NCBI GenBank assembly: GCA_001839685.1
Contig: MLAK01000565.1
Coordinates: 32,625 to 96,624 of the forward strand
DNA length: 64,000 nucleotides
Direction of reading: 5' to 3'
From: Tritrichomonas foetus
Taxonomy: Eukaryota > Parabasalia > Tritrichomonadida > Tritrichomonadidae
In this document: positions 40,497 through 58,400 of the stretch, in pieces
Position numbering within the stretch: position 1 is the first letter of the stretch
Layout of the letters: each line of letters opens with the position of its first letter
Position numbers and translations under genes: made by a program
The notes under the pieces: generated by a model
Told to the model about the DNA's origin: nothing
The model's database searches: none
What the model saw: only the letters and a program-made list of their open reading frames with translations

Positions 40497-40505
40497 TTCT
40501 TTGAT
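40497..40505. repeat. Target-site duplication, left copy
   Basis: TTCTTTGAT directly precedes the left transposon copy, and the same nine bases follow it at 41601-41609. Such a 9-bp duplication is typical of Mutator-like insertion. Confidence 0.85.
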
Positions 40506-41600
40506 AGATGTATACAAACTAACTAGATCTAGATGTAGAAGACTATTGAGAGATCTAAATGAATAATTGTTGATATTATTGTCATCTAAAAATTATTTAA
40601 TTGTAATCCTATTAATAATATATAAATATTATAATTTAAAAATCAAGATACAGAGAAAACCAAATCCAAAAAAAAATTGTGAGAAAAAAATAAACCCAAC
40701 AGAAATTTCTGAGAATTATTGAGATAAAAAGTGATTTTATAGCATTAATATCTTGATTATTTATTATCATAAATCGTGCTTTTTATTATCATATGACCCT
40801 CCATCGAAAATTATAATGTTTTCCAAAATACAAAAATGAAGTATAAAAAAAATATTAATAATTTTGATATAAATAAAAAAAATTTAGGCATCAATGAGAA
40901 GATTACGAATGTTTTGCCATCTAAATGGCGAGTCATCAGAAAATTCACTTGGCATCGAGTCTGGAAAAAAACATATTGGATTCCATTTTTCTTGATTTGG
41001 TCTTTCAATCGTTGTATCTGTATCCCTGCTTGAGAATGTGCTGTTGAGGACTGCCAGTCTATTTTCTTCATATACTAAAATTTTATGACAGAAAAGATTT
41101 CAATACATTCATATTTGTCAAATGGAAATTGAATTAATTCAACATCACTGAGTTAAAACTATCAAAATTTTCGCGATTTTTAATTAAAAATCGATAGAAG
41201 AAGTGTAAATAGAATTATGGGAAGCAGTATTATAATCTTTGTGATTCTTGGAAAAAAAGCTTCTCACAATTTTTTTTAAGCTTCCTCCAAAATCGCTCTT
41301 TTTTCGGTTTAATTGTTGCAAAATTTCAAAACTATGAATAAATATGGCTCATAACTATAAAAAATAGATTTAACAATTGACTGAAAGCTGTTCACCCGAA
41401 AACTGAAACAATAGCTTCTTCAGAATCATTTTCGAAATATTTTTGAATTCGGCCATTTGCGAAGTTTGCGATAAGGGAAATTTTCGTCATTCTTTTAGNT
41501 ATTTGGGTTTTGATTTTTGACTGATGGTATTAAGTAATACTGATGATAAGGATCATTTTAGTGATTTCGTACGTTAAGACTATTTGGTTTGTATACATCT
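40506..41600 (-). mobile_element. 1.1-kb DNA transposon copy A (terminal inverted repeats)
   Basis: The element begins AGATGTATACAAAC and ends with its reverse complement, GTTTGTATACATCT. It is flanked by the 9-bp duplication TTCTTTGAT. A near-identical copy lies in inverted orientation at 48582-49677; differences seen are a few bases near 41275-41290 plus one ambiguous base at 41499. It carries one small frame and no recognisable transposase, so it is probably non-autonomous. The 8-9 bp duplications and TIRs suggest a Mutator-like (MULE) or related superfamily. Internal subterminal inverted words (TTGTGAG with an A/T tract) occur near 40678 and 41266. Confidence 0.88.
40811..41071 (-). CDS. 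Transposon-borne small ORF, copy A, 86 aa
   Basis: The frame starts with ATG and encodes an 86-aa product identical to that of copy B. The first 60 residues are polar (MKKIDWQSSTAHSQAG at the start) and the last 30 are strongly hydrophobic and Phe-rich. A TCATA initiator-like motif (minus strand, 41084-41088) lies 15 bases upstream. I recognise no transposase motif. It may be a transposase remnant or a chance frame; identity between copies reflects recent transposition, not proven selection. Confidence 0.35.
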   Translation of the reverse strand: MKKIDWQSSTAHSQAGIQIQRLKDQIKKNGIQYVFFQTRCQVNFLMTRHLDGKTFVIFSLMPKFFLFISKLLIFFLYFIFVFWKTL

Positions 41601-42245
41601 TTCTTTGATATCATTTTAAACTTTTTAAGATAGTATTAAAATGAGATTGAATACATTCTTAGAAATCTTTGAAAATACATAGAAATTGTGATGAGATAAC
41701 AGAAACTGATGTGTGTTTCGGTGTAACATAAAATTCAAACCTATTTAAGCAATCTTATCAGATTGATCCTAACGAACTTCTAACTGCATTCTTAATGATT
41801 TTCAAGTTTCTCTAAATTTGCTACATATCGTGGATTAACTTCAGATAATTGACCAAATACCGCTAGATTGAAAGTGATACCTTTATTTTCAACCACTATC
41901 TCAAACGCATTCAAATAATTGAATAGAAGTATGTATTCAATTTATTTGTTCACATCATTTTTGATGTTTTCTCATATATCATTCACCCAGAAAGAATCGT
42001 TCCATCATTCCCCATTTCAAACTACAGCATACAGTAATGTAATATCACAAAATCATTAAATCTTAAAAAATGTAGAAATAATTCAAATATTTATGAGATA
42101 TTTTTAATAAAGAATAATCTTTTAGCTGTTCAAGTGCGTAACATCTTATTTGAATCATTATGAGCCATTTCATTTATTTCTATTTCATTTTTTATTTGTA
42201 AACTTTTGAATATCGAAATTATGATGATTGATTCGAGAAATCTAA
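41601..42245. other. Intergenic region between transposon A and EMC3
   Basis: AT-rich sequence starting with the right-hand target duplication at 41601-41609. I see no gene and no further element. Confidence 0.5.
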
Positions 42246-42905
42246 TCATTTCATTTTAGAATCAATCATAGCGAGAAGCTCATCTTCTGCGTTTTCAAGT
42301 TCCCATTTATGTGGATCAGCAGCAAGACGATTTGCATATTGCTTGTAGTTGCTTTTATTCGTGTATGTCATCTTGAAAGCCTTTCCCATAGGAACCATCA
42401 ATGCAAAGAGCTCGCTGCATGTTTGCAAAGCCAAATATAATCCATAGGCACTAACTGTGTAGTTGTCAACCTCAAAATTGCTTGGAAATCCATACTGCAG
42501 GAATTTCTTCAATAATGGGGGGATTTCAAACGGCAAAATAAGGGCGGGCTTCGAGCCGATAGAGAACGACATATAAAGACTGAATCCCATTCCAAATAAC
42601 ATCGGCAAAATCATCAAGAATGGATTTTCTGGAAAGACGAATTTGTCGGCTCGGAGTGGCTTTTCCATTTTGTTCAAAGCAAAAGTCCTCCTAATGTCGA
42701 TGGCTGAGCGGCAGTATTTAAAGTTGTTTCTGATCCAGAATTTCGTCCTGTAAAATAGCGCGTTGTTGCGGCGAGAGATTGGTCCATTTGATATATTATT
42801 GTATAACTTGATATAAAGGAAAATTACTTGTGAGAAAATCGACACAACAAATACTTCGAGGGCTGTGAAGTAATACGATTCGAGAAATTCATCAATCGAA
42901 ATCAT
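42246..42905 (-). CDS. EMC3: ER membrane protein complex subunit 3 (EMC3)
   Basis: The 219-aa product has three membrane spans (about 14-34, 95-115, 145-170) with a long cytosolic loop after the first, the Oxa1-superfamily layout. Landmarks agree with EMC3: ENPFLMILPMLFGMGFSLYM (like DMMKGNVTNVLPMILIGG), LPFEIPPLLKKFLQYG (like VPFPLTLRFKPMLQQG), YTVSAYGLYLALQTCSELFA, and the C-terminal DPHKWELENAEDELLAMI (like DHQWALDDVEEELM). EMC3 is the insertase core of the ER membrane complex and inserts tail-anchored and polytopic proteins. The protein is somewhat shorter than the human one (about 260 aa), mostly in the N-terminal loop. The ATG is at 42905. Confidence 0.82.
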   Translation of the reverse strand: MISIDEFLESYYFTALEVFVVSIFSQVIFLYIKLYNNISNGPISRRNNALFYRTKFWIRNNFKYCRSAIDIRRTFALNKMEKPLRADKFVFPENPFLMILPMLFGMGFSLYMSFSIGSKPALILPFEIPPLLKKFLQYGFPSNFEVDNYTVSAYGLYLALQTCSELFALMVPMGKAFKMTYTNKSNYKQYANRLAADPHKWELENAEDELLAMIDSKMK

Positions 42906-43988
42906 CAGCGAAATTGGAAAGATTTAATTGAAAAGAAATTTGTTGATCGTGGTTTCTTTGATCTTGGTGACCGTTTACACTTGGGCTAATGTTTATCAAT
43001 GATGAAATATTCAGATATGGGCCATATTAGGCCTGAAAAAGTTTGGAAATCACATCAAGAAACCTGCTCTAGTTTCGGCAACATGAATAAATCAGTAATA
43101 TTATGAAGATATTATATTCAAGATAACAACTAATTGAAAATATAATTTTGAACAATTCATGAAGTGATTGTTATCATGGATTCCAAAATTGCACAATCTT
43201 TGATTTTACACTAATACGAGATATTATAATAGAAAATTTCAATGAATTTTATTAAATAATAATCACATTGAGGTTTCAAAAAGACAGAAAAGTTGAATTT
43301 GTAAACTAACCACTTAATTTCATTCACTTATGGACTATAAATCATTGTATCAGAATAAAAACAAATCAATACATCATCTTTTGATAATAGATTTATCTCT
43401 TTTTGATGAAAATGTCTTCGATGGTTATGTTACTATGATCCTATAATTTATATCCTATTCGCGAATCTTATGTAGAAGGCTCGCTAGGGTCAGTAAAATT
43501 GAATAGCATGATCTACTCCTTGGACATGACAAGTTATAGTATACAGTACAGTGAGTTTTGACCAGTTGGAAGATAACAGTACAATAATTGTTATGAAATT
43601 GTTGTATTTCATGTATTTTATTTCAGTTGATTATTATGAGATGAAATCTATTTCAAATTGTTCATCTTGATAATTAGATTTTAATTCAATAATTTTATCT
43701 TTTATACCTCATTCCATTGAGATTGATGGGTAAAACAATCCAATTAACTTGTCAAAAATTATAGTAAGATTAGACATTGCGATCTAATTATTTGTATTCA
43801 TGATATCGACAAGCTTTTTAGGTCAAAATTTCCCTATTAAAGTGAGTCAATATTGTGTTGAGTCTTAATTGCCAATTAAAATGGAAATCGTGACTATAAT
43901 TCTCTAAGAACATCAAAGGCATACCTATTTAATGTCTAATATCAATTTGATCAATGATTATATTGAATGTTCCATAATCTTTGCATAA
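42906..43988. other. Intergenic region, no gene recognised
   Basis: More than 1 kb of AT-rich DNA with no usable frame on either strand. Since an actin-like relic follows it, part of this stretch could be further decayed gene sequence, but I could not recognise any. Confidence 0.45.
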
Positions 43989-44021
43989 AATATCACTAAT
44001 TGGACGAGATTATCGAAAATA

Positions 44022-44482
44022 ACATTCCAAGGAAACAACCAAAGCATTTATAGTTTTGTTTATCCAAATGAAATATCATTTGGGCTGATTTCCTCAGATT
44101 GTGATCTTGACTTTTCTAACAGTCAAAGTTCTAAGTTACATGACCACACTGTAGTTCATTCTGGCTATTCCATGGATTTCACTTATATAATGTTAAAGTG
44201 AATATAAATGATTGTAATTTTCAAACAGTAACTGATGAATTTATTGCCTCAATGGAATATGCATCATCAAATAGTTTTACACCATCTTCACATTTTAGAA
44301 CTTCAAGATATCAACTTCCTGATGGAAAACCTTTAGTAAATGTAGGTGTTGAACCCTTATCATTTATTTTCGAAAAAAAAAGATACTATATCATTAATAA
44401 ACGATTTTCTCTTTCCTTAATCCCATTGATATTTGATGTGAAACTCACTATCTTGGAAAGATTTTCAAATTTGGAGGACTAA
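44022..44482 (+). pseudogene. Actin-family pseudogene fragment
   Basis: Two frames together recall the middle of actin or an actin-related protein. In the first (44022-44201) are QSIYSFVYPNEISFGLISSD (like QSALSLYSSGRTSGLVVDSG) and HDHTVVHSGYSMDFTYIM (like THTVPIYEGYALPHAI), ending in a stop. In the second frame (from 44198) are FIASMEYASSNSF and SRYQLPDGKPLVNVGVEPL (like the E-M..A..SS ... YELPDGQVITIGNERF region). About 45 residues that should lie between the two parts are missing. Neither the ATP-binding N-terminus nor the C-terminus is present. The frame change, stop and deletion make it a relic. The match is by eye. Confidence 0.55.
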
Positions 44483-44709
44483 TTTTTTACATTTGAATAT
44501 TTAAAGTGGAATATCTTTTCTCAGAACACTTTATATGAAAATTGTGTAGATTGTTAAGGGGTAAAGTTTTTATTGGTTTTTGTCGATCTATGAATTTCAA
44601 GTATAATAGATGCCTCAGTACATAACACAGATACATTAAAAGGGAATTATTTTATTCGTTTTAGAGTCGCCAATTGGTGTGATTTGTTTTTGTGATGTAC
44701 GATGAAAAA

Positions 44710-44714
44710 TCACT
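44710..44714 (+). promoter_or_regulatory. Initiator-like element TCACT
   Basis: TCACT matches the trichomonad initiator consensus; its A at 44712 lies 25 bases before the ATG at 44737. It supports transcription of the small coiled-coil gene. Confidence 0.4.
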
Positions 44715-44736
44715 CAAAGTGACATTTAAGCATTGA

Positions 44737-45276
44737 ATGTTTCTTTTCGTCATTTTATGGCTTAAAGGAATGGGGATCAGCAAAACTAATGATGAAAGTA
44801 TTAAAAAAGAATATGGCATCTTTATTATGGACATAATTAAAGATGAAATAAAAAAATCGATGCAAGAGTTGAGGATTCAAAAACAGTTAAAGCAAATTGC
44901 AATGGATACAATTGATGTATCTTCTCTCAGAAGACCTAATGAACAAATTAGTGAAGTTCAGAAGCTTCAAAAAAGTATAAGTGATCTCAGGAAAGAAATT
45001 CGAAACGAACAATGGAAGGAATATCAAGCAAGAGCCAATAACATGAAACAAATTCAAAAAGATAGACTCAAAGTTCATATTTCTCATATTTTACCATCTA
45101 TCAAAGCACAAAATTATCCATTTCCACAATATTCTACTTTGCCTTTTTTCCCATCAACATTTCAAAACCCACAGCAGTATTCTCAATACAACAGGATGAT
45201 AACCAATGCCAATTCCAATAGAAAAAGAAGACTACCAAATACTATCAAACGATACAAGAATAAAATACGAAAATAA
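44737..45276 (+). CDS. Small coiled-coil protein with basic tail, 179 aa
   Basis: ATG start with an initiator 25 bases upstream. The first 11 residues are hydrophobic (MFLFVILWLKG) but short for a signal peptide; an alternative ATG gives MGISKTND. Residues 25-115 are Lys/Gln/Glu/Ile-rich helix, likely coiled coil (VQKLQKSISDLRKEIRNEQW). The C-terminus is Pro/Tyr/Phe-rich and then strongly basic (NRKRRLPNTIKRYKNKIRK). No family is recognised. It may be nucleic-acid or membrane associated; nothing decides. The last 20 coding bases are duplicated 30 bases downstream. Confidence 0.5.
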   Translation: MFLFVILWLKGMGISKTNDESIKKEYGIFIMDIIKDEIKKSMQELRIQKQLKQIAMDTIDVSSLRRPNEQISEVQKLQKSISDLRKEIRNEQWKEYQARANNMKQIQKDRLKVHISHILPSIKAQNYPFPQYSTLPFFPSTFQNPQQYSQYNRMITNANSNRKRRLPNTIKRYKNKIRK

Positions 45277-45305
45277 TGTATGATTAAGAATAAAATACGA
45301 AAATA
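45256..45305. repeat. 20-bp direct repeat, 30-bp period
   Basis: AAGAATAAAATACGAAAATA occurs at 45256-45275, overlapping the end of the coiled-coil ORF, and again at 45286-45305 beyond its stop. A short tandem duplication at the gene's 3' end. Confidence 0.8.
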
Positions 45306-45678
45306 AAGTTGTGATTGACGATTTATGAAGAAAGAATTACTTTTGAAAATCAATGGGCTGTTTTTTTATCGATAATCTGAGTAATCAAGTTATTTATGCA
45401 ATTCTGGAACAATCACCCAACACATTCTATTTTTTTTATCCGCTTGGTATTTTCTGAGAGTAGGATTCACATCAAACATTCAAAATGAAACAACGAATAT
45501 TCATAATGAAGCAAGAGAATCCAAAAGAAAGAAAGAAGAAAATAAAAGACATAAAAATAAAAATTCGCATTATTTAAAAACTATATATATGTATCTGTAT
45601 ATGTATGTTATAAAGCATATCAATGTAAGAGTCTAATAATCCGCATACCAGTCTCCTTTTCTTTTTTATTTCGGAAGT
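45306..45678. other. Convergent intergenic region, nothing distinctive
   Basis: AT-rich DNA with a short TATATGTATCTGTATATGTATG stretch near 45583-45605 (a dinucleotide-like patch). No gene. Confidence 0.45.
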
Positions 45679-47368
45679 TCAGACATTTTCTTTATTTCCT
45701 GCAATCATTTCTTCAACAGCTTTACAAACATTTGCAAAGGCATCTGGATTACCCTGAAAGAGTTGCAAAGTCAAAACGGTGTCAATTTCCGAATCCAGTG
45801 ATGCACTTTGGAAAATTATATATCCTCCAATTTGGTCACTTCTTGAAAGTATTGTAAAATCGTCTGGGAAAAACCATTGCATACCAAGGCTTCTTACAAG
45901 GACTTGCATTAATCTCATTAATTCTGTGATTAAAATACCACTTATTTTCACCTCAAATGTTTGCACGATATCCATTGGTTGTGTTTCAAGGACGTTCCAT
46001 TCTGGACGATTTGCCAAAGAGTTTCCAGCTTCCAAAGACTGTGAAGAAAAAGATGAACCGTACCGATGGAATGGATCACTTCCAGTCATTGTGAACGCTT
46101 GATTGACTGCATTCAGTATGATTTCTTCGCCGGCAGGAAGTTGAACATTTGCATCGACAGAAAGTGACCAGTCAAGTTGATCAAAAGACACGCGAGTTGT
46201 CAGCATATAATAAAATACTTTGGCCATCGAATGCGTTGGTGATGCAAAATCAATAGCAAGCTCAGAATCATCGTTATATCCAATTTTCCTCAGGATATCG
46301 ATGATTTCTGGTGAAACCTTGGTTGGATCAACTGGCTGAATAAAATTGGGAAATGGAATGGGCGTAGGCGAAATGTAATCATATGGAAGATTAATCCGAA
46401 AGAATGGATGTTGTTTAATTTGCGGAATCGTAATCCTCTTTATGGGATCAAGTGTAAGGAGCTGTGAAATTAAGTCTTTTGCGGGTTCACTAAATGGCGG
46501 CATTGTATAAATTCCTCTTTTCACTTTGTTCAGAAGCGCGCGAACTGATGAATCATCGAAAGGTAAATATCCCTGTGAATTAGATTTTCTTAAAGCCGTA
46601 ATCAGCGAAATAATTTTTCGACCACATTTTATTGTTAAAAAAGTCAATTTTTCATTTTTCTTCAAAATATTATTGTCATATATATTTTCTTTCAAAAAAT
46701 AAAAAATTGAATTAAAATGTCCAAAAAAGCATTTTGCATCATACGGAAAAAAAACATACAGCAAGCAAAGCGTATAAAATAACTCCGCAGCTCCAAATGT
46801 CTGCAGCACGACCATCGTATGGCTGCCCACGGATGACTTCAGGAGCCGCATAATGTGGAGATCCACACGACGTTTCGGCAATATTCGTTTTAACAAATCG
46901 AGCAAATCCAAAATCGGCAATTTTGATGTTTAAATTTTCGTCAAGAAGAATATTTTCCGGTTTTAAGTCGCGATGACAAATTCCAAGCGAATGAAGATAT
47001 TCTAATCCATAAATTATTTGCCGAAAGAATCTCATCGCAACTTCTTCAGGCAAAGTGTTATTTTCCACCAAATAGTCAAATAATTCGCCTTTTGAAGCAT
47101 ATTCGAGAACAATATATAAATGTCGTGGTGATTCTAGGAAATCAACAAGTTTCAAAATGTGTGGATGATCGACTAATCGCATTAAAGCTATTTCTCTTTG
47201 AATTTTTAATAATAGGTTTGGTCTATCATTAAAACTATCTTTTTTTATGATTTTTATTGCATACTTCTTTTGTGTTTCTTTGTGGAGTGCTAATTTGACC
47301 TTTCCTGTTGTTCCGCAACCAAGGGGGTTTAAAAGAACATAAGGTCCGAGATTAATAGTATTTTCCAT
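45679..47368 (-). CDS. CAMK/AMPK-like Ser/Thr kinase with one intron, 500 aa
   Basis: The CDS is join(45679..46572, 46760..47368) on the minus strand. The ORF extends to a TTG, but the first ATG is 47368. Exon 1 encodes 203 residues with LGCGTTGKV, Lys39, HRDLKPEN (Asp134, Asn139), DFG 152-154, APE 175-177 and DIWSCGVILYALLA. Exon 2 continues exactly with GYLPFDDSSVRALLNKVKRG and HPFF. Splicing in phase 0 restores a full kinase domain; without it the protein stops after a few intron codons. Residues about 285-325 look like a UBA-type helix bundle (VSPEIIDILRKIGYNDD), and the C-terminus ends with a KA1-like segment (GNPDAFANVCKAVEEMIAG). The layout fits BRSK/MARK/AMPK-related kinases. All catalytic residues are kept. 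Confidence 0.9.
46573..46759 (-). other. Spliceosomal intron, 187 bp, GTATGT ... TCTAATTCACAG
   Basis: On the minus strand GTATGT begins at 46759 and CAG ends at 46573. The 3' end TCTAATTCACAG resembles the trichomonad fused branch point and 3' splice site ACTAACACACAG. The exon junction falls between the LLA and GYLPFDD codons, a position of unbroken kinase homology. Length lies within the range I recall for T. vaginalis introns. Confidence 0.9.
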
Positions 47369-48282
47369 TTTGCCTGGCCATGTAAGGCGAAATAACAAGG
47401 TGAATTGAGTAAATTTTCACCTAATATAATTGTATCATTATTTGGTCAAAATGAAATTGCCAATGTCAGTGAAAAATCTCTCATACGTAAGTTGTATTAT
47501 ACTGGCAGTATAGGTATAGTTATACGTTTGTTATTTGGTCGTTCTTATCAGAGTTTCACTTATCATGATGGATAAATTGAGACATCTTTGAAAATCTATT
47601 AGAAAAAGTTCGCCAACATAGAAATGAAAATGAATCAAAGCAACGAACAGAAACATATTATTTACACATTTTGTAGTTGCATTAGTGCAAGATGATATTG
47701 CCCTGGATATGTGAAGATAACAAACGATATCTTTTTCTTTGTTGAAATTTCGTCCTCACAAAATATTGAATTATGAAAAAGAAAGTTGAAGAAATAAAGA
47801 ATTGAAAAAAATATCGTCATCACAAAATATTGAATTTTTTACTTCGTGATATTGAATCATCAAAACACTGTTATTCTTTGAACTTATATAAAAAACGCAA
47901 AAGAAGAGATGAAACACTTAGTATTTCTGTTGATGACCGCATTATATATAAACAATAAATATATCATTAAAATGATTAGGTAATATTCGAAAGTGGTTTT
48001 AAATTCTATTAATTTCCATTGAATAAATTTTGGTTTTTTAAAATAATAATATCTCAATTCTCAACGGGATCATATGACTTATATTGTGAAACATTTATTA
48101 TATTAGTATAGATGAAATATATTCAAATATTCAAAAGAATTTCTCGTAAGAAAATCAAGATATATTAATTTTTGTTTCAATGTCATTATCAATGTCAATC
48201 TATTGACCTCAAAATTTGACCATTAAAAACAGTTCTAGATGTGGAAATCGACCAGTTCCAGAAAAATCTTATTCTCGCCTAA
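47369..48282. other. Intergenic region with a 22-bp imperfect direct repeat
   Basis: No gene is supported. CGTCCTCACAAAATATTGAA at 47751 recurs at 47815 with one change (CGTCATCACAAAATATTGAA), 64 bases apart. The rest is AT-rich. Confidence 0.5.
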
Positions 48283-48516
48283 ATGAAACTTGGAAAAGCA
48301 TGTGAAAAGATTAATAGCTACCCACAAATTAATCTCTACCGTCATAACGATCGAGATCCTGTAGAATTTTTTGAGGAAGGCAACTACGACGAATTTCTAT
48401 ATCACAATAACATTTTTGATCATATATCGATCAATTCCAATCGTAACTTAAATCTCTCTTTTTTTTTTTTGAAAGTGTTCTCATATGCAGTTCTATTTCT
48501 GTTGACAAACAATTGA
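48283..48516 (+). CDS. Small ORF of doubtful status, 77 aa
   Basis: ATG start. The first 50 residues look protein-like (KINSYPQINLYRHNDRDPVE, FFEEGNYDEFLYHNNIFDHI) with mixed polar and aromatic residues; the end is a hydrophobic tail derived from a poly-T stretch. No initiator motif is seen. It stops 65 bases before transposon copy B. It could be the 5' remnant of a gene or a chance frame. Confidence 0.25.
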   Translation: MKLGKACEKINSYPQINLYRHNDRDPVEFFEEGNYDEFLYHNNIFDHISINSNRNLNLSFFFLKVFSYAVLFLLTNN

Positions 48517-48573
48517 AAAATTCGTACAAAGATTATATTGATACTATTATATTCGGAAGATAAGATTTAGAAG

Positions 48574-48581
48574 ATATAAAT
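48574..48581. repeat. Target-site duplication, right copy
   Basis: ATATAAAT flanks transposon copy B on both sides (48574-48581 and 49678-49685). It is 8 bp and unrelated to the 9-bp duplication of copy A, so the two copies inserted independently. Confidence 0.75.
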
Positions 48582-49094
48582 AGATGTATACAAACCAAAT
48601 AGTCTTAACGTACGAAATCACTAAAATGATCCTTATCATCAGTATTACTTAATACCATCAGTCAAAAATCAAAACCCAAATAACTAAAAGAATGACGAAA
48701 ATTTCCCTTATCGCAAACTTCGCAAATGGCCGAATTCAAAAATATTTCGAAAATGATTCAGAAGAAGCTATTGTTTCAGTTTTCGGGTGAACAGCTTTCA
48801 GTCAATTGTTAAATCTATTTTTTATAGTTATGAGCCATATTTATTCATAGTTTTGAAATTTTGCAACAATTAAACCGAAAAAAGAGCGATTTTGGAGAAA
48901 GCATAAAAAAAAATTGTGAGAAGCTTTTTTTCCAAGAATCACAAAGATTATAATACTGCTTCCCATAATTCTATTTACACTTCTTCTATCGATTTTTAAT
49001 TAAAAATCGCGAAAATTTTGATAGTTTTAACTCAGTGATGTTGAATTAATTCAATTTCCATTTGACAAATATGAATGTATTGAAATCTTTTCTG

Positions 49095-49099
49095 TCATA
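49095..49099 (+). promoter_or_regulatory. Initiator-like element TCATA inside transposon B
   Basis: TCATA matches the initiator consensus with its A at 49097, 15 bases before the ATG of the element's ORF. The same motif exists in copy A (minus strand, 41084-41088). It suggests the element could be transcribed. Confidence 0.35.
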
Positions 49100-49111
49100 A
49101 AATTTTAGTAT

Positions 49112-49372
49112 ATGAAGAAAATAGACTGGCAGTCCTCAACAGCACATTCTCAAGCAGGGATACAGATACAACGATTGAAAGACCAAATCAAGAAAAATGG
49201 AATCCAATATGTTTTTTTCCAGACTCGATGCCAAGTGAATTTTCTGATGACTCGCCATTTAGATGGCAAAACATTCGTAATCTTCTCATTGATGCCTAAA
49301 TTTTTTTTATTTATATCAAAATTATTAATATTTTTTTTATACTTCATTTTTGTATTTTGGAAAACATTATAA
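49112..49372 (+). CDS. Transposon-borne small ORF, copy B, 86 aa
   Basis: Identical in product to the frame in copy A: polar first two thirds, Phe/Leu/Ile-rich last third. It has an initiator-like motif 15 bases upstream. No transposase signature such as a DDE pattern is visible, and the element is too short for a full transposase. Confidence 0.35.
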   Translation: MKKIDWQSSTAHSQAGIQIQRLKDQIKKNGIQYVFFQTRCQVNFLMTRHLDGKTFVIFSLMPKFFLFISKLLIFFLYFIFVFWKTL

Positions 49373-49677
49373 TTTTCGATGGAGGGTCATATGATAATAA
49401 AAAGCACGATTTATGATAATAAATAATCAAGATATTAATGCTATAAAATCACTTTTTATCTCAATAATTCTCAGAAATTTCTGTTGGGTTTATTTTTTTC
49501 TCACAATTTTTTTTTGGATTTGGTTTTCTCTGTATCTTGATTTTTAAATTATAATATTTATATATTATTAATAGGATTACAATTAAATAATTTTTAGATG
49601 ACAATAATATCAACAATTATTCATTTAGATCTCTCAATAGTCTTCTACATCTAGATCTAGTTAGTTTGTATACATCT

Positions 49678-50100
49678 ATATAAATGGAAAATTCAATGCG
49701 ATATATTCACAAAAAGTCGAAATAATTTGTGAAATTGAATGAATTATTGAATCTTCATTATAGCTTCTTTTTTCTTTGAATTACACACAATATAACCGAG
49801 AGAAAATAATCAATGTATAATGAGGAATAAGTAAGCTAAACTTAAAAGTTGATAATCACAAAAATATCAATATTTAGACTCAATACATTCCGAGAACATG
49901 ATATCAAGTAAACTTTTTGATTGACGATATAATTTTTTCAGGAAATTTTATATTCAGAAAGAAATAAAATTGCTTGAATTCATTTTAAGTCTTTTTTCAA
50001 AATGAATTCCAGTATTTCATCAATTGAAAATAAAATCGTTTCTTATCTAAAGAAAAAGTGAAAGAAAGAATATAGAAAGAAGCTCAGAAAACTGAAGCGA
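49678..50100. other. Region upstream of the adenylyl cyclase
   Basis: AT-rich DNA after transposon B. From 50062 a frame without stop joins the cyclase frame, but no ATG occurs in it. I find no GTATGT donor or ACTAAC-type acceptor that would supply an upstream exon. Confidence 0.45.
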
Positions 50101-50241
50101 ATTGAACTCGAGAGCTCTCAAGTCTCGAGGGCATCGCATTCCCAGAGTATTTCGTCAGCACCAGACCAAGTTAACATCAGTGCCAAGAGTTCACTTGGCT
50201 TTATCTTTCCTTTATTCGATCAAATTACAAAATTGACGTCA

Positions 50242-53200
50242 ATGCCGAAATTCATCACATTTTTAGTTGCTTTATTCTTTTACTGTCAGATCATTTTCAG
50301 TTCAATTTGGCCTTACACAGCTTTTTTCCGACTTGAAACAAATGTCAATTCGAATGTCGTAATCGGCTACGAAACTCAAATTTTTTGGTTTTTGAATCAT
50401 GAGATTAGTTTTGAATCGTCCTATGCTTCATTTCTCACATGCTTAGTCGTTTTTATCATCTGCTTCGCATGGTTCCTTTTCATTGCTACCTTTTATCACC
50501 TTCGAAGGAGATACATGAAATGGACGCTTTATCCAACCAGGGTTATTATCGAGATTATAGCACCAATATTTTTGCACCCATCAACAGCAGCAGCAGGCTC
50601 AGCTTTGCTAACTTTAATGAACACAAAAACAGCTTTATCATGGGTATTTTTCGTTATTGGTGTCATTATTTATGTCTGCTTTTTATTCATATTTTTAACA
50701 GGTTATTCTTTCATGTGTAATTCTGCTATTTTGGTTACAACTTTATATACAGCATTTGATCCAACTTTTATGAAAATCATGTCAATTACTTCATCGTTGA
50801 TGGTATTTTTGTCGTTTTTATTTTATAATTTCGAGGGTTGGGTTACAAACATTCTTCAGATTGTTCACTTTGCTATTTTCCTTTATTTATTTATCCAAGT
50901 CTTTCAAATTAAGTTCCATAGTAAGGTAGGGAATTACCTCGTTTTTTCATTTGTTTTGACCAGCCTCCTTTGTGATCTTTTACTCTTGATATGCAATTTA
51001 GCACCAACAATACTTTTCGGAATGATTCCTATTTTCGTTTCTATTATCGCTTTCGTCTTATTCTACGTTATTGGAATTTTTGTAATAAAAGCTACTTTTA
51101 AAAAGGTTGCTAATCAAATGAAATATGATATAGAAGAAGACGAAGAAGTAACTGCAGAATTCCAGTCTAACCTCTTTCGAAGTCTCCGAATTGACACGAG
51201 CCGTAATAAAGCATTGTTATATTTACGAATTGGCCTTGTTGAAATGACGGAACCGTTTACAGACTGGAGCTTGGTTAAATTTATCATAGCTAATTATGCA
51301 GACGATCAATCTGTTTTATGCCCTGTGATTCAAATTTTGTCATTTTTCCCATGTCAACAACAACTTTTAAATGGATGTTTTGTTCAGGTTTTGAAGAAGA
51401 AGAAATTGAATCTCGGACAAAGATTCTTGATCTATCAGGCTTATAGAATTAAGACTATGAGACAGTCATCTATTCCACTTGAAGCCAATGAAAGAATGCT
51501 TCATTTGAGACTCAATACCCGCGACTGTGAATTTGCAATTAAATCAGTCTGGGGTTCTAAAGTAACACCCTCTATCGGGTTATTTGAAACCATCAATAGT
51601 ATGACGGAAAAAACTGATGGACTTTGGCAAGAAGGAATTAGAGACTATCCAAACAACTCTAAGATTAGTGAAGATTATTGTAGATTCTTAACTGAATGTC
51701 GAATGGACTTTAAAGGTGCAGTTGTACAAAAACAAAGAATTGATATGATTGATAATGGCCACAACTTTTCACGCGATTATTCTTTCAGAAGCTTTGTTCA
51801 AAATTTCCCACTTTATTTGAAAAAGAATCTCGTTGATACAAGCGGCAATATGATTAGAAAGAACCGCCATACAAAAGGCACCAATTCTTCAAATTCCAGT
51901 CATTCAAAACAGACTTATTCAACTTCAGGAAGTTTGGTGAATATTGATTTTGAACTTGAAATGATGCAAGCACGTGTTCTATTTTCACAATCAAAGTTGA
52001 GAATGGCTCTTTATAATGCATTAAAGAATACAAGATTGATGGTTTCTAATTTAATGATTGTTACTGCCATTATTTCATTTGTTGTTTGTGTTATATGTTT
52101 TGTAGTAATGGACATTTTAATTAAACAATGGCTTTATGAACGTTCTCTTGATTCAGCAAACTCGGAAAAATTGACAAATTCATTCTTTTATATGAATGTT
52201 GCCAGTCTAAATATTTTAATCGAGTTTATGATGCTTAATAACAGGTTTTTGAACATGGAATACATGATGGAATTCCGAAAAGTCGAATCGAATCTCACTT
52301 CTTATATTGTTTTTGGTATCGATATGAGACCAGATTTAATTAAAAATATGATTAAATCCCAAAATTATTTCGAAGAGTTCCTTAATGAAATATCTAATCA
52401 AGCATCATCTGGCTTAAATGTTTATGATATGGCTTTATCACTATTCAAACCTCGTGTTCCCGGAATAGTTTGCTGGCATGGTCGACCGACCAATACATAT
52501 AATCGTTCAATGAAAGATTCAATGACTGATTTATTCTATGACTTTAACAGGCTTCAAGCATTTCCATCCGATTTACATTTATATATGACTGATCCTTACT
52601 GCGAAATTCCTACAAACATGATTTTAATTGGTGATCCTTTGAGATATCTACTAGAAAACCTTCATTCAGCGCAAGTGAATTCTAGTTCTTCGTTCAATGC
52701 TAATGTCAACACTAATTTGATCATTATTCCTACTATTCTACTTATAATGACATTGATTCCATTTTTGATAGTTGGGATAGTATACTCGATGAAAATGAAG
52801 AAATTCGCATCACTATTAATAGGATTGGATCCAAAGACTAAAGAAGGATGTAAGAAACCAATCCTTGTCTCTTCTGATCAACAAAATGATGTAACAACAT
52901 CGGATCATATTGAAGTTGGCCATAAATGGCTAGTTAATATGTTCATTCATGTATTTTTCTCAATTCTTGCTTTTATCGTCATTTTTATTATGATTTACAG
53001 ATCAAGTCATACAAATAATATCCTAAAGAAGATTAATGATTGGCAATATCTTAGTTCAATGCGATTCATTTATTCTATTGAACTTACACATATTATTTGG
53101 CATGCTGTTATCTTAAATGGATCATTCGAATCACGTACTTTAAGCCAAAAAGCTATGGCTAATGTTTGTAATCGTTTAATAACTAATTTAAAGGCTGTAA

Positions 53201-54864
53201 ATACATTATTACTTAAAGGATCAGCAAATTATCAATCATGCGTTGGTTTTGATAGAGAACTTGATGAAATTAATACTAAAGAGCAATGCAACTTAAATGA
53301 AACAAATGAAACAGAAAGTATTCATGACCTTTATCGATGTGCTTCTGCCAATCAAGCTATTAATGTGTTTGCGGATATAGTGCAAACAGTTACAACAAAG
53401 ATAGAATCATATGGTGGTAAAATCGAGGATCCAATTCTAATTAACTTGATTCACTTAGCAAATGCACATCTTTGGCATCATTTAAGTCTTGGAAATTCTC
53501 GACTTTTAGAACTTATTCTCTTTTACTATCAAGATTATTCAGATAGTTGCGATGTTTATATGCTTTGTGGAATTATAGTTGGATTCATCATTCTTGTTTT
53601 CCAGATCTATTGCTCGATTTATTCACATAAATTGTATCATGTTGGCTTATCACTTGTAAGAAGGATTCCACTTCAACAATTCGTTGCGAACAAAACATTG
53701 CTGAACTTTGTTTTAAATAGAAAATCTGTACACATGTCTTCAATCACTTGCACATCACAAAGCGTTATTATGCACTCGAATGATGGTATGATTGGTGTTA
53801 ATAATGAAGGCATCATTGAAATTATTAATCCAGCTGTTACAACCATCCTTGGATACACTCCAGACCAACTTCTTGGTCAACCAATCACTGAAATCTTTAA
53901 ACCAGATGATGGTGAACATATCGCACAACAAATGAAATCAATGTCAAACGGTCAAGGTCTTTTAATTAATGAAAAACACTTGATTTGCATATCAGATAAT
54001 GCCAATGAAGTTCCTTGCCATATCTTCATTATTGGTCTTAAAGGAAAAACACATTCAGTTGTTGAATCATATGCATTCTTATGTCGTGATGAATCATCTC
54101 TTGTTGAACAACAGACAGCAGCAGAAGAAGCTAAAGCACAGAGTGAAAAATTATTGTTCCAAATCCTTCCAAGAAATATCGTTACAAAACTTAATAGAGG
54201 TGAACATGATATTTCATTTTCAGTTCCATCAGCCTCAATCATATTTACAGATATTGTTAGATTTAGTGATTATTCATCCAATCTTTCACCATCTGAAGTT
54301 ATGGGTAACTTATCACAGATATTTGCATCATTTGATGAAGCAGTGAAACAGCATACACTTATTACTAAAATCAAGCTTATTGGTGATATTTATATGGCAG
54401 CTGCTGGTTTGTTCAGTGAAGAAGGATCTAATCCATCACTTCATGCTGAACAAACTGTTAAATTCGGTTTGGACTGTCTTCAATGCATTGAAGACATGAA
54501 TATCAAGCTCGACGCAAACTTGCAACTTCGTATTGGTGTAAACAGTGGAGGTCCACTTTACGCAGGTGTTCTCGGATCTGATAAACCTGTCTTCGATATC
54601 ATTGGTGACCCAATTAACGTTGCAGCTAGACTTCAAACAACAGATTTACCTGGAAGAATTCAAATTCCTCAATCAACATATGATCTGATTGCTCAATGCG
54701 GCTTTTTGATTGAGCAGAGAGGTGAAGTTTTCTTGAAAGGTAAAGGAAAAACAGTGGCGTATTTCGTAAACCCAATGTCAGCGACATTTGCATCAATGAG
54801 TGAAGAACAAATGACATTGACATCAAATGACAAAATGAAGACATCTTCACCTTTCTTTTCTTAG
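50242..54864 (+). CDS. Multi-membrane PAS-adenylyl cyclase, about 1540 aa
   Basis: The N-terminal 300 residues hold several membrane spans. A cytosolic helical region follows (about 300-600), then further spans near 610, 835, 910 and 1110, separated by large ectodomain-like loops. A PAS domain (about 1175-1285: GMIGVNNEGIIEIINPAVTT, LGYTPDQLLGQPITEIF) precedes the class III cyclase domain (about 1330-1515). Both metal-binding aspartates are present (IIFTDIVRFS, Asp1337; KIKLIGDIY). The Lys in KIKLIG and the Asp in VFDIIGDPINVAARL match the adenine-selecting pair, so ATP is the expected substrate. A homodimer at the plasma membrane making cAMP is inferred. The first ATG is 50242 (MPKFITF); the frame continues upstream to 50062 with family-like sequence (SISSAPDQVNISAKSS, FPLFDQITKL), so the true start is uncertain. 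Confidence 0.9.
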   Translation: MPKFITFLVALFFYCQIIFSSIWPYTAFFRLETNVNSNVVIGYETQIFWFLNHEISFESSYASFLTCLVVFIICFAWFLFIATFYHLRRRYMKWTLYPTRVIIEIIAPIFLHPSTAAAGSALLTLMNTKTALSWVFFVIGVIIYVCFLFIFLTGYSFMCNSAILVTTLYTAFDPTFMKIMSITSSLMVFLSFLFYNFEGWVTNILQIVHFAIFLYLFIQVFQIKFHSKVGNYLVFSFVLTSLLCDLLLLICNLAPTILFGMIPIFVSIIAFVLFYVIGIFVIKATFKKVANQMKYDIEEDEEVTAEFQSNLFRSLRIDTSRNKALLYLRIGLVEMTEPFTDWSLVKFIIANYADDQSVLCPVIQILSFFPCQQQLLNGCFVQVLKKKKLNLGQRFLIYQAYRIKTMRQSSIPLEANERMLHLRLNTRDCEFAIKSVWGSKVTPSIGLFETINSMTEKTDGLWQEGIRDYPNNSKISEDYCRFLTECRMDFKGAVVQKQRIDMIDNGHNFSRDYSFRSFVQNFPLYLKKNLVDTSGNMIRKNRHTKGTNSSNSSHSKQTYSTSGSLVNIDFELEMMQARVLFSQSKLRMALYNALKNTRLMVSNLMIVTAIISFVVCVICFVVMDILIKQWLYERSLDSANSEKLTNSFFYMNVASLNILIEFMMLNNRFLNMEYMMEFRKVESNLTSYIVFGIDMRPDLIKNMIKSQNYFEEFLNEISNQASSGLNVYDMALSLFKPRVPGIVCWHGRPTNTYNRSMKDSMTDLFYDFNRLQAFPSDLHLYMTDPYCEIPTNMILIGDPLRYLLENLHSAQVNSSSSFNANVNTNLIIIPTILLIMTLIPFLIVGIVYSMKMKKFASLLIGLDPKTKEGCKKPILVSSDQQNDVTTSDHIEVGHKWLVNMFIHVFFSILAFIVIFIMIYRSSHTNNILKKINDWQYLSSMRFIYSIELTHIIWHAVILNGSFESRTLSQKAMANVCNRLITNLKAVNTLLLKGSANYQSCVGFDRELDEINTKEQCNLNETNETESIHDLYRCASANQAINVFADIVQTVTTKIESYGGKIEDPILINLIHLANAHLWHHLSLGNSRLLELILFYYQDYSDSCDVYMLCGIIVGFIILVFQIYCSIYSHKLYHVGLSLVRRIPLQQFVANKTLLNFVLNRKSVHMSSITCTSQSVIMHSNDGMIGVNNEGIIEIINPAVTTILGYTPDQLLGQPITEIFKPDDGEHIAQQMKSMSNGQGLLINEKHLICISDNANEVPCHIFIIGLKGKTHSVVESYAFLCRDESSLVEQQTAAEEAKAQSEKLLFQILPRNIVTKLNRGEHDISFSVPSASIIFTDIVRFSDYSSNLSPSEVMGNLSQIFASFDEAVKQHTLITKIKLIGDIYMAAAGLFSEEGSNPSLHAEQTVKFGLDCLQCIEDMNIKLDANLQLRIGVNSGGPLYAGVLGSDKPVFDIIGDPINVAARLQTTDLPGRIQIPQSTYDLIAQCGFLIEQRGEVFLKGKGKTVAYFVNPMSATFASMSEEQMTLTSNDKMKTSSPFFS

Positions 54865-55477
54865 GAAATGTGATATGAAAAACATAAGAATAATTTCACC
54901 GTGCTTGACCTTGGATCTTTTTATTTTTTTATTGTGATATTATAATTATTATATTCTCCATAGTCATAAGATATTGTTATAACCTTAATTTTGATAAAAT
55001 TTATTTTTTTCGATTTTTATCAATTTTTTTTTTCTTTTCTTTCTTTTATTGAATATTACTTCATTTTAGTAAACTTAATCAGTATTCACTAGTGAATAGA
55101 CCATCAATTCTCTTCAACGAGAAGTTCACCAAATTTTGATTATTCAAAAACTTTTTTCATTGAATTCATTAATAAATGCAAATTACTGGAATCCATGCAA
55201 TATACTGTGCTTTATTTCTTTGATATAATCCGATATGAAAGATGATTAATCGAATTGAAAGCATTATTTGATATTTCCTCAAATTTTAATGTAATCGAAA
55301 ATTTAATTTAAATTGAACATCAACGAAAAACAAACAAATTGAATTTTTCTGATGAGACATTCATTTACATTGAATTGAAAGAATTCCTTTGAGGGACTTT
55401 TGGAGTATTTGAGAAAATTATGTAAAAAATATCCATTCAATTTTCAATTCGAATCTTTCGATTCTTCTTGTTGCATA
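54865..55477. other. Intergenic region between tandem cyclase genes
   Basis: AT-rich with a T/C-rich stretch near 55005-55050. The frame of the next gene opens at a TTG at 55400, but its first ATG is at 55478. A TCATT word occurs near 55360. No gene. Confidence 0.5.
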
Positions 55478-58400
55478 ATGGAGAGTGCAACAAATAATAG
55501 CTCGACCACCACCACCTCATCATCATACGAAACAAAAAAAGATCATCTTCCATTTCTCAAAAAGTCATATCTTTCGCGTTTTCGACTTACGTTTTGTGAA
55601 TTTTTCGCCTTCGCCTATTGCTCATGCCCGATTCACCCTTTATTCATGAAGATATGCAGTGTAATTCGATTGATACAAATTTATATCCCTTCAATGCTCC
55701 TCACTCTGTCGTCTCTTTTTTCGCATAGTTTCGTTTTGCGCAGAATGCGAAAAATTCTCACTGTTTTCACTCGCGCGTTGCCGGTTGATACAGACATCGA
55801 TAAGGTCCGTGTCGCAAGCTACGTAGTTTTGGCTTTCTTGATATTCGAATTTTTATTCTTATTTTATAATACGAACAGATTTCAAAAGAAAACCACAATT
55901 CATCCTTTTTCGCTTCAATACATTTGTATATTCTCATTCAATATCAATGTTATCGTCAAGCCAATAGCCGTCTCAATATCAACTTTTCTGATTCTATCAA
56001 AACATCAAACATCTGCTGACTTTATTGTGTGCATTTTCATTTATGTTGTTTTAATTCTGAATGTTTTGATCGATCTGGCTCAAAATTCTGTTTCTTTATT
56101 TTTCTTACCAACTTCGTTTTTAACATTAAAACAAAAATCACATTTTGCATTTACGTTAATTTGTCCATTATTAACATTTTTCAATGAACTGATGGTTTTT
56201 GCTAACTATTATTATATCTGCCAAGCCATTTTAATTATTTTATATATTTTACTTTACTTGTCAGTAGAAAGTTATGGGTTTATAATACAATTATGGGAAG
56301 CCAAAGCTTTTTTTGCTACAATATTCACTTCTATCGTGACTATTATAACATTGACTTGTTTTGATATCTTTCAAAAACATATTCCTATATATTTACTGAT
56401 TATTTTATTCGCTATTTGGGTTCTTGCATATATCATGAGTCATTTTTATCGAAACCACCAAATAACCAGATCTCTGCGGATTTTGACTGAATTACAAGAA
56501 GATTCCGTTAATTTCCAACAATTTAAAACACCTCATAAACTTTCACGTGTGATTTTACATGGCTTTATTTTTGCTCATGAATATTGTATTAATTTTTCGA
56601 TTTTCCGAGATTCGTTAGAATATTTCCCAGATAATTTATCGATATTATATATCTTTGCTAAATTTCTAGCAATTTATCCTGAAGAAGGTCATCAACTATC
56701 ATGGATTCAATTAAGTATTAATCGAAATCATAGAAAGAAGTTCACTTCGAAATATATAACAACGCAAATTAATGCAATTTTAATGAAAAGAGATACATCA
56801 CTTTCACCTGAATTGAAAAGGAAGCTTCAATCAATCTCACAATTAATGGCAACGTCGAAATTAAGAGTTCGGAATGCTTGGGAATCTGCCATAAGTGGAA
56901 ATTCGTCGCGACTTTTACCACTTTTCGAAAAGGCGACTGTTTTAATCGATCAAATTAATTTAAAATTTACCAATCTTCAATCTTATCATTCTAATAATCA
57001 TTATGCTTTATCTTTACAAGCATCTTATTGTAAAGATATTCTTGCTGATTATAAAGAAGCCGAACGACTTTTCGAAAAAATAAGATTTTTACAATCTGGA
57101 AAGGCTTCATCTATTGATCAACCATTTTTGTTTGGTCGAATATACTTTCCACTCCTCCCCTCGAAAATCACAGTGTCTTCAAGCCAACTTGTGATAAATG
57201 AAATTCCACAACATTCATCACAAGAAGAATATGCTATTATTCCTAAAGATGAAGAATCCTCACTTGATATGTCATTTGATGCAATGACTTTACACTCACA
57301 AATGAAGTCATCCATTGATTCAATTAATGTTCCATCAATCAACTTTTCAATTTATTTTATTGTTTTTTCGATGTTCATTATCTTCTTTGCATATTTTATA
57401 ACCATGTTGTGTGTAACACCAACACTATCTTCCAAAATTTCTGATCCTTCCAAATATTTGTCAATTGTTGGAAACATTCGATATTCTTTTCACATGGTTG
57501 CAGCAACTGCAGCACGATTGCATGGTGAAATTTCTGATGGGTTTTCAGATAAATGCGAATATGATGAAAATATCAATGAATTAATTGGCGGTTCTTGTTC
57601 ATCATTAAATAAACTTCAATATATATGCAATCAAGCATTAAAAGCACTTGAAGAAATACCAGCAATGCAACTTATTACTGCCACAAACAGATACTTGAAA
57701 AATGCACAAACAATCATTTTCAATAAAAAACATCAATATAAAGATTACCAAAATTGGACATCATATATTACAGTTGAAAGAACTTTACATGAAGAATTAA
57801 TTTATTATATTGAAACAGTGATTCTTTTATCTTCAGATGAAACCTACCTGAATGATACAACCTCACATTATTATGCAAATATAATGATGAATTTTAATGA
57901 AATAAGTGACCCACTTTTACAAGCAAGTGATTTGTTGATGGAATTTCTTGAAAGTCAAGTTACTGTTATTCAATCGAAATTTACTTTAGCACAAATAATA
58001 GTTTGTACTATAGTACCACTGATAGACATTATTGTTGTTATTATTTTATCGAAATGGATTGTTTCTAATCAACAAAAAGTTTACCATTGTTTTACTTCAT
58101 TACCAAAAAGTACTTTACAAATCATGATGAGTAAATTAGATAATACAACGATACAAACTGGTCATCAGACAACTGTTTCTATTGCTTTAGATGATGTTAC
58201 AGATACAAAGGCTAAAGACGATAAAATTATCGCACTTTTCCATACAGCTCAACATGGAAGCTCCAATAAAAACGTTATTCTATTTGTATGTTCAATGATA
58301 GTAATTGCTGCTATCAAATCTGCCTATTTATACTTTTCTATGGCTCTTTTTATAAATGGTTCTGATTCATTTAAACAATCTACTCCACATTTGGAATCAA

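Follow-up and report, generated by a model that had tools for sequence, protein, structure and literature searches.

Tritrichomonas foetus is a parabasalid, a single-celled parasite of cattle. A 64,000-nucleotide stretch of its genome (positions 32,625 to 96,624 of contig MLAK01000565.1, assembly GCA_001839685.1; hereafter the window) holds two nearly identical 1.1-kb sequences, which raises the question of what they are and how they came to be there. We conclude, with a probability of about 0.9, that the pair are two of roughly at least 500 copies of a non-autonomous, internally deleted P-superfamily transposon in T. foetus. P elements, known from fruit flies, are the standard example of a transposon that invaded recently, and are usually discussed in animals. 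The two copies, their terminal inverted repeats (TIRs) and their flanks are:

40506..41600, plus strand: copy 1 of the 1.1-kb non-autonomous element assigned to the P superfamily, 1095 bp
48582..49677, minus strand: copy 2, 1096 bp, inverted relative to copy 1
40497..40505: target duplication TTCTTTGAT, 9 bp, left of copy 1
41601..41609: target duplication TTCTTTGAT, 9 bp, right of copy 1
48574..48581: target duplication ATATAAAT, 8 bp, left of copy 2
49678..49685: target duplication ATATAAAT, 8 bp, right of copy 2
40506..40519, plus strand: TIR of copy 1, 14 bp, element left end
41587..41600, minus strand: TIR of copy 1, 14 bp, element right end
48582..48595, plus strand: TIR of copy 2, 14 bp, element right end
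49664..49677, minus strand: TIR of copy 2, 14 bp, element left end

The preliminary description of this DNA had claimed matching TIRs and independent, recent insertions, and both claims hold. The TIR AGATGTATACAAAC is exact at 4 of 4 ends of the window copies. When up to 2 mismatches are allowed, the window contains 4 matches to it, all of them exact; shuffles average 0.80 matches, and 1 of 100 shuffles had 4. The copies differ from each other by 3 substitutions and are flanked by different duplications.

Across the 63.7-Mb genome, AGATGTATACAAAC has 544 forward and 545 reverse exact matches, and the reversed pattern, used as a control, has 0 and 0. If half of these ends represent one copy of ~1.1 kb each, the family would comprise ~545 copies and ~0.6 Mb, near 0.9% of the assembly, an estimate from end counts rather than from a copy-by-copy count. 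Among the first 100 of 1089 listed places, we paired exact ends by eye where they converge within less than 6 kb, which gave 39 pairs. An exact 8-bp target duplication flanks 33/39 pairs, an exact 9-bp duplication 2/39, and an 8-bp duplication with one mismatch 1/39 (L095); of the remaining 3/39, two have flanks of N (L013, L017) and one lacks a duplication (L009). The 9-bp duplications are genuine, as the 8 adjoining bases mismatch in register, and window copy 1 is of the same type. At 11 further pairs, from loci chosen for longer copies, 9 have an 8-bp duplication and 2 have none. The latter two form an adjacent inverted pair (L079:71-2461), a 1096-bp and a 1249-bp copy in opposite orientation and 46 bp apart. 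The 45 target sites whose bases were counted come from overlapping locus sets, so that some may be included more than once; they are A+T-rich without a strong motif.

These duplications around most of the 39 pairs indicate transposon-like insertion, and the proposal of a DNA transposon family is thereby borne out: the window pair is two among hundreds of copies with target duplications. The rival reading is that the pair arose by segmental inverted duplication. The two copies are inverted and 7 kb apart, which would suit such an event, but it is contradicted by their different flanking duplications and by the hundreds of other copies. The refuting condition named beforehand, other copies without target duplications or with non-matching ends, was checked on the pairs above and does not hold. 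We therefore reject a segmental origin.

The transposon family is also young. Among 37 copies with lengths of 1066-1103 bp, namely the two from the window and 35 taken from the 39 pairs, mean divergence is 0.86% and maximum divergence 1.65%; divergence from the majority base is 0.49%. Several variants are common to at least 5 copies, so more than one source copy has been active. Contigs C2, C48, C119, C379, C390 and C443 have their first bases inside an element end, and the family thus breaks the assembly. A published chromosome-level T. foetus assembly is 148 Mb (PMC12428144), against 63.7 Mb here, and much repeated DNA must therefore be missing from the present assembly. At L087:1287-1328, three head-to-tail TIR copies, one with a mismatch, stand at one site. 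A 3.1-kb pair on C55 (L009) was considered as an autonomous copy and rejected: both of its ends are left ends, a 2448-base assembly gap lies between them, and it has no duplication.

Longer copies reveal what the 1.1-kb elements are made of. Copies of 1255-1260 bp keep a larger N-terminal frame (a 77-amino-acid query matches 21 places full-length at 96-100%), copies of 1249 bp keep a larger C-terminal frame (a 94-amino-acid query matches 8 places full-length at 99-100%), and the copy on C456 is 1301 bp. The longest, on C546 (L069), is 2113 bp and has 1015 additional bases where the 1.1-kb copies have TTTC:

40988..40991: internal-deletion junction of copy 1, with the 4-bp microhomology TTTC, from alignment to the C546 copy

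The 1.1-kb class and three other short classes can each be aligned to the C546 copy as a simple internal deletion. The overlaps at the junctions are 4 bases (TTTC), 2 bases (CA), 13 bases (in an alignment with mismatches) and 6 bases (ATTTTT). The additional bases of C546 encode a 215-amino-acid frame in which Tnp_P_element (PF12017, E 2.4e-6) precedes TNP-like_RNaseH_N (PF21787, E 2.8e-5); both exceed the Pfam cut-offs, the second narrowly. The record for this transposase fragment is TRFO_32366 [Tritrichomonas foetus], and the host identity is also borne out by an inosine monophosphate dehydrogenase gene of the genome, whose 503-amino-acid product aligns with no difference to PDB 1ak5, the T. 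foetus enzyme. The C546 copy is itself damaged: there is one stop within the N-terminal region, the outermost bases of the right end are altered, and the frame stops after the second Asp region. The expectation that the window copies are non-autonomous and have a longer relative elsewhere is thus confirmed, and no intact autonomous copy was found in the present partial assembly.

We assign the family to the P superfamily because C546 encodes the P-type helix-turn-helix (HTH) and the N-terminal half of the RNase H domain, and because the short copies derive from a C546-like copy by deletion. The earlier suggestion of a MULE (Mutator-like element) or hAT transposase does not survive, as this longest copy has P-type domains only. 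Nor does duplication length decide the superfamily, as had been proposed: 8 bp with a 9-bp minority cannot alone separate P from hAT. MULE duplications are about 9 bp or more; here they are mostly 8 bp, and we rejected MULE membership on this and on the domains of C546. A family of hAT miniature inverted-repeat transposable elements (MITEs) would fit the short TIRs and the 8-bp duplications of 33/39 pairs equally well. However, the only long coding copy carries P-type domains and no hAT domain, and the 1.1-kb copies derive by deletion from a copy of that type, which makes a hAT origin highly improbable.

As a P-superfamily family, these elements would be moved by a P-type transposase supplied in trans, from an autonomous copy that is outside the present assembly or now lost. 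This enzyme would bind the element ends, excise the element and insert it with an 8-bp stagger. The internal deletions may have arisen when gaps left by excision were incompletely repaired, the explanation also given for Drosophila P elements; of the products, a single 1.1-kb form would then have been amplified most.

Both window copies retain a trace of the transposase gene, an 86-amino-acid frame:

40811..41071, minus strand: 86-amino-acid frame of copy 1, the first 28 transposase codons (coiled coil) followed by an out-of-frame remnant of the transposase end
49112..49372, plus strand: 86-amino-acid frame of copy 2, the same remnant

The statement that no transposase is visible is accordingly right for a working gene, but each of the two copies has this remnant. 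In Drosophila, a small P element encodes the 207-amino-acid repressor KP (PMC7776569), and the 86-amino-acid product might likewise have been retained as a repressor of transposition. The frame is intact in 31/37 copies, and substitutions per column are fewer inside it (0.11) than outside (0.20). However, distinct changes within the frame comprise 12 that alter an amino acid and 1 that is silent, where silent sites are ~1/5 of all sites, and so give no sign of coding constraint. The frame is also out of register with the transposase after codon 28, and young copies are expected to have open frames in any case. Retention as a KP-like repressor is thus quite improbable.

Searches with the C546 fragment (P0001), and then with its relatives, gathered 16 proteins, P0001-P0016, one of which (P0006) is named 'Transposase protein [Tritrichomonas musculus]'. 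The relatives align with the T. foetus fragment at ~40%, and most fall below Pfam cut-offs. In Drosophila P transposase the catalytic signature is D230, D303, D339 of the D(2)H motif, and E531 (PMC8230255, PMC7776569). Among the 16 proteins, the first two Asp are 69-70 residues apart and the second Asp is 43-44 from a DxxH motif, wherever both positions are present. DxxH occurs in 12/16; the last position is reached by 5/16 (Glu in 3, Lys in 2), and the complete D, D, DxxH, E series is found in only 1/16, P0011. The T. foetus fragment P0001 keeps the first two Asp only (D93 and D162, 69 apart). About 170-177 residues separate DxxH from the last position in the relatives, the region in which a P transposase would have its GTP-binding insertion. 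Other searches added little. Structure comparison puts Drosophila P transposase at the top of the list, level with unrelated folds, and in PDB and VIA it did not stand clearly above other RNase H-like folds; neither a predicted structure of P0011 nor the matches to it were informative. No useful match came from PDB sequence searches with the C546 frame or with alignment A3, and NCBIfam has no match for the P proteins. A genome Pfam search for the C-terminal RNase H domain (PF21789) had no match, but its control was silent too, so absence is not shown.

When the genome is searched with P0011, C546 matches at 41%, followed by 18 other matches at 23-36%. Long open frames among the matches are found on C887 (789 amino acids), C310 (826), C532 (706), C745 (608) and C142 (808). 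One match lies inside a 4044-amino-acid open frame on C214. The elements might therefore be moved by some other intact P-like transposase encoded in this genome, such as the C887 or C310 frame, given several long open frames at 23-29% identity to P0011 and no complete cognate copy found. At such low identity, recognition of the same ends is unlikely, and we regard this alternative as unlikely as a whole. The partner of the 1.1-kb elements may lie in the unassembled half of the genome or be lost, or else another P-like enzyme serves.

The ends of the element are also informative. Internal to the TIRs, the element carries a subterminal inverted repeat, here for copy 1:

40669..40685, plus strand: 17-bp subterminal inverted repeat, left arm
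41261..41277, minus strand: 17-bp subterminal inverted repeat, right arm

The repeat is perfect, and one of at least 17 bp occurs in only 1/300 dinucleotide shuffles. Its 15-base core is kept in 35/37 and 37/37 copies on the two sides. As far as sequence can tell, a 17-bp repeat combined with 14-bp TIRs fits the end structure of the P superfamily.

Some copies of the element carry a passenger. This second MITE, which we call B, is 894-895 bp long (for example L110:39-933), unrelated to the P element, and has the TIR AAAAGTACACAACCT, for which the genome has 107 + 117 exact matches (224 ends) against 0 and 2 for the reversed-pattern control. Stand-alone B copies have 8-bp duplications in 10/10 picked (L113-L132). 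One B sits in the left TIR of a P element, where the duplicated ATACAAAC equals TIR bases 7-14; the insertion therefore restored the outer 14-bp P end. There are 49 B/P-element junctions in the genome, 45 of them exact, and composites examined at both ends have outer 8-bp duplications in 6/6 cases (C39, C171, C234, C345, C561, C596), so B travels along with the P element. The right B junction can be read directly in 3/6 composites; in C39 and C561 it falls into an assembly gap, and C345 has lost it by deletion. C561 has a complete left TIR after the gap, a misfit with simple B insertion for which misassembly may be responsible. The P-element deletion classes differ between composites of 1999 and 2151 bp, and hence B-bearing elements have undergone deletion on more than one occasion, or else there is recombination between copies. 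The 2.0-kb copy on C39 (L010), a candidate for a longer family member, was rejected as it is such a composite. The C345 composite has a longer B segment with a 188-amino-acid frame (L070:2990-3556) that matches no Pfam family above cut-off and has matches at three other places in the genome; it is perhaps a fragment of B's own transposase, and any likeness to hAT would be a judgement by eye.

The P transposases described so far begin with a THAP finger (PMC1562414). The T. foetus element has a coiled coil directly after the start codon, and in the frames shown, stops interrupt the stretch upstream. Of the relatives, five have long N-termini (P0002, P0003, P0006, P0009, P0012), and none of these matches THAP; they have the coiled coil first and 0-2 Cys before the HTH. 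No THAP was found in the 807-amino-acid protein on C142 (L094). A genome Pfam search for THAP (PF05485) had no match, but its control was silent as well, so that absence is not shown. In the sequences examined, the transposase lineage seems to be without a THAP finger. A THAP on a separate exon far upstream of the T. foetus transposase may nevertheless exist. In a further reading, the Tritrichomonas P lineage would never have had THAP, its transposase starting with coiled coil and HTH. Animals would then have joined THAP to a P transposase that already existed, and the ends here would be recognized by the HTH alone. As part of this reading, the subterminal repeat needs no fixed distance from the end, because B inside the left TIR shifts the inner sequence by ~0.9 kb and the element still jumps. 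We hold this reading tentatively, at somewhat less than even odds.

Elsewhere in the window, positions 50233-54864 and 55400-59995 are adjacent long genes with adenylate/guanylate cyclase domains at their ends, and with PAS in the first. Between the two copies, at 45679-47398, are two overlapping minus-strand frames, one of which matches only the end of a protein kinase domain; a disrupted kinase gene or an error in sequencing may explain them.

This is a real, young, high-copy family of a known kind, in a host group for which our searches of openly licensed papers listed no description. The transposase, without THAP in the sequences examined, and the self-restoring passenger set it apart as a variant. 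The claim that the family is undescribed is supported as far as those paper searches go, which did not cover Repbase. If a young P family of high copy number and without THAP does exist in a metamonad, it would help to date when THAP and the P core were joined. The family also puts a name to some of the repeats of T. foetus, of whose genome a 2024 assembly left 16% as unclassified repeats (PMC11415386), and it provides a ready marker for strain comparison.

Among known systems, the zebrafish Pdre2/THAP9 element is similar in its 13-bp TIRs, 8-bp duplications, internally deleted copies and 12-bp subterminal inverted repeats far from the ends, with ~400-bp spacers (PMC10983969, PMC7776569). Unlike the T. 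foetus family, which has an unrelated TIR, no intact gene found and, as far as seen, no THAP, Pdre2 has an intact THAP9 gene with THAP. The P element of Drosophila melanogaster and its KP derivative share the 8-bp duplications, have 11-bp subterminal inverted repeats and deleted forms of 0.5-2.8 kb, and show the same domain order of coiled coil, HTH and RNase H; P has 31-bp TIRs and THAP, whereas the TIRs here are 14 bp and no THAP was seen (PMC7776569). Unlike KP, the short T. foetus product shows no sign of retention by selection. The P-MITEs of Anopheles gambiae are likewise non-autonomous, with P-element ends and 8-bp duplications, but their centre is unrelated to P and their masters bear THAP, whereas the T. 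foetus interior is a deleted transposase gene (PMC1562414). Galileo, a P-superfamily element of Drosophila, shares the P-type DDE and D(2)H signature and differs in its mostly 7-bp duplications, long TIRs and the presence of THAP (PMC4168063). Finally, IS481EU is a DNA transposon of the same host group, parabasalids including T. foetus, but its duplications are about 4, 15 or 25 bp and its transposase is unrelated (PMC10045372).

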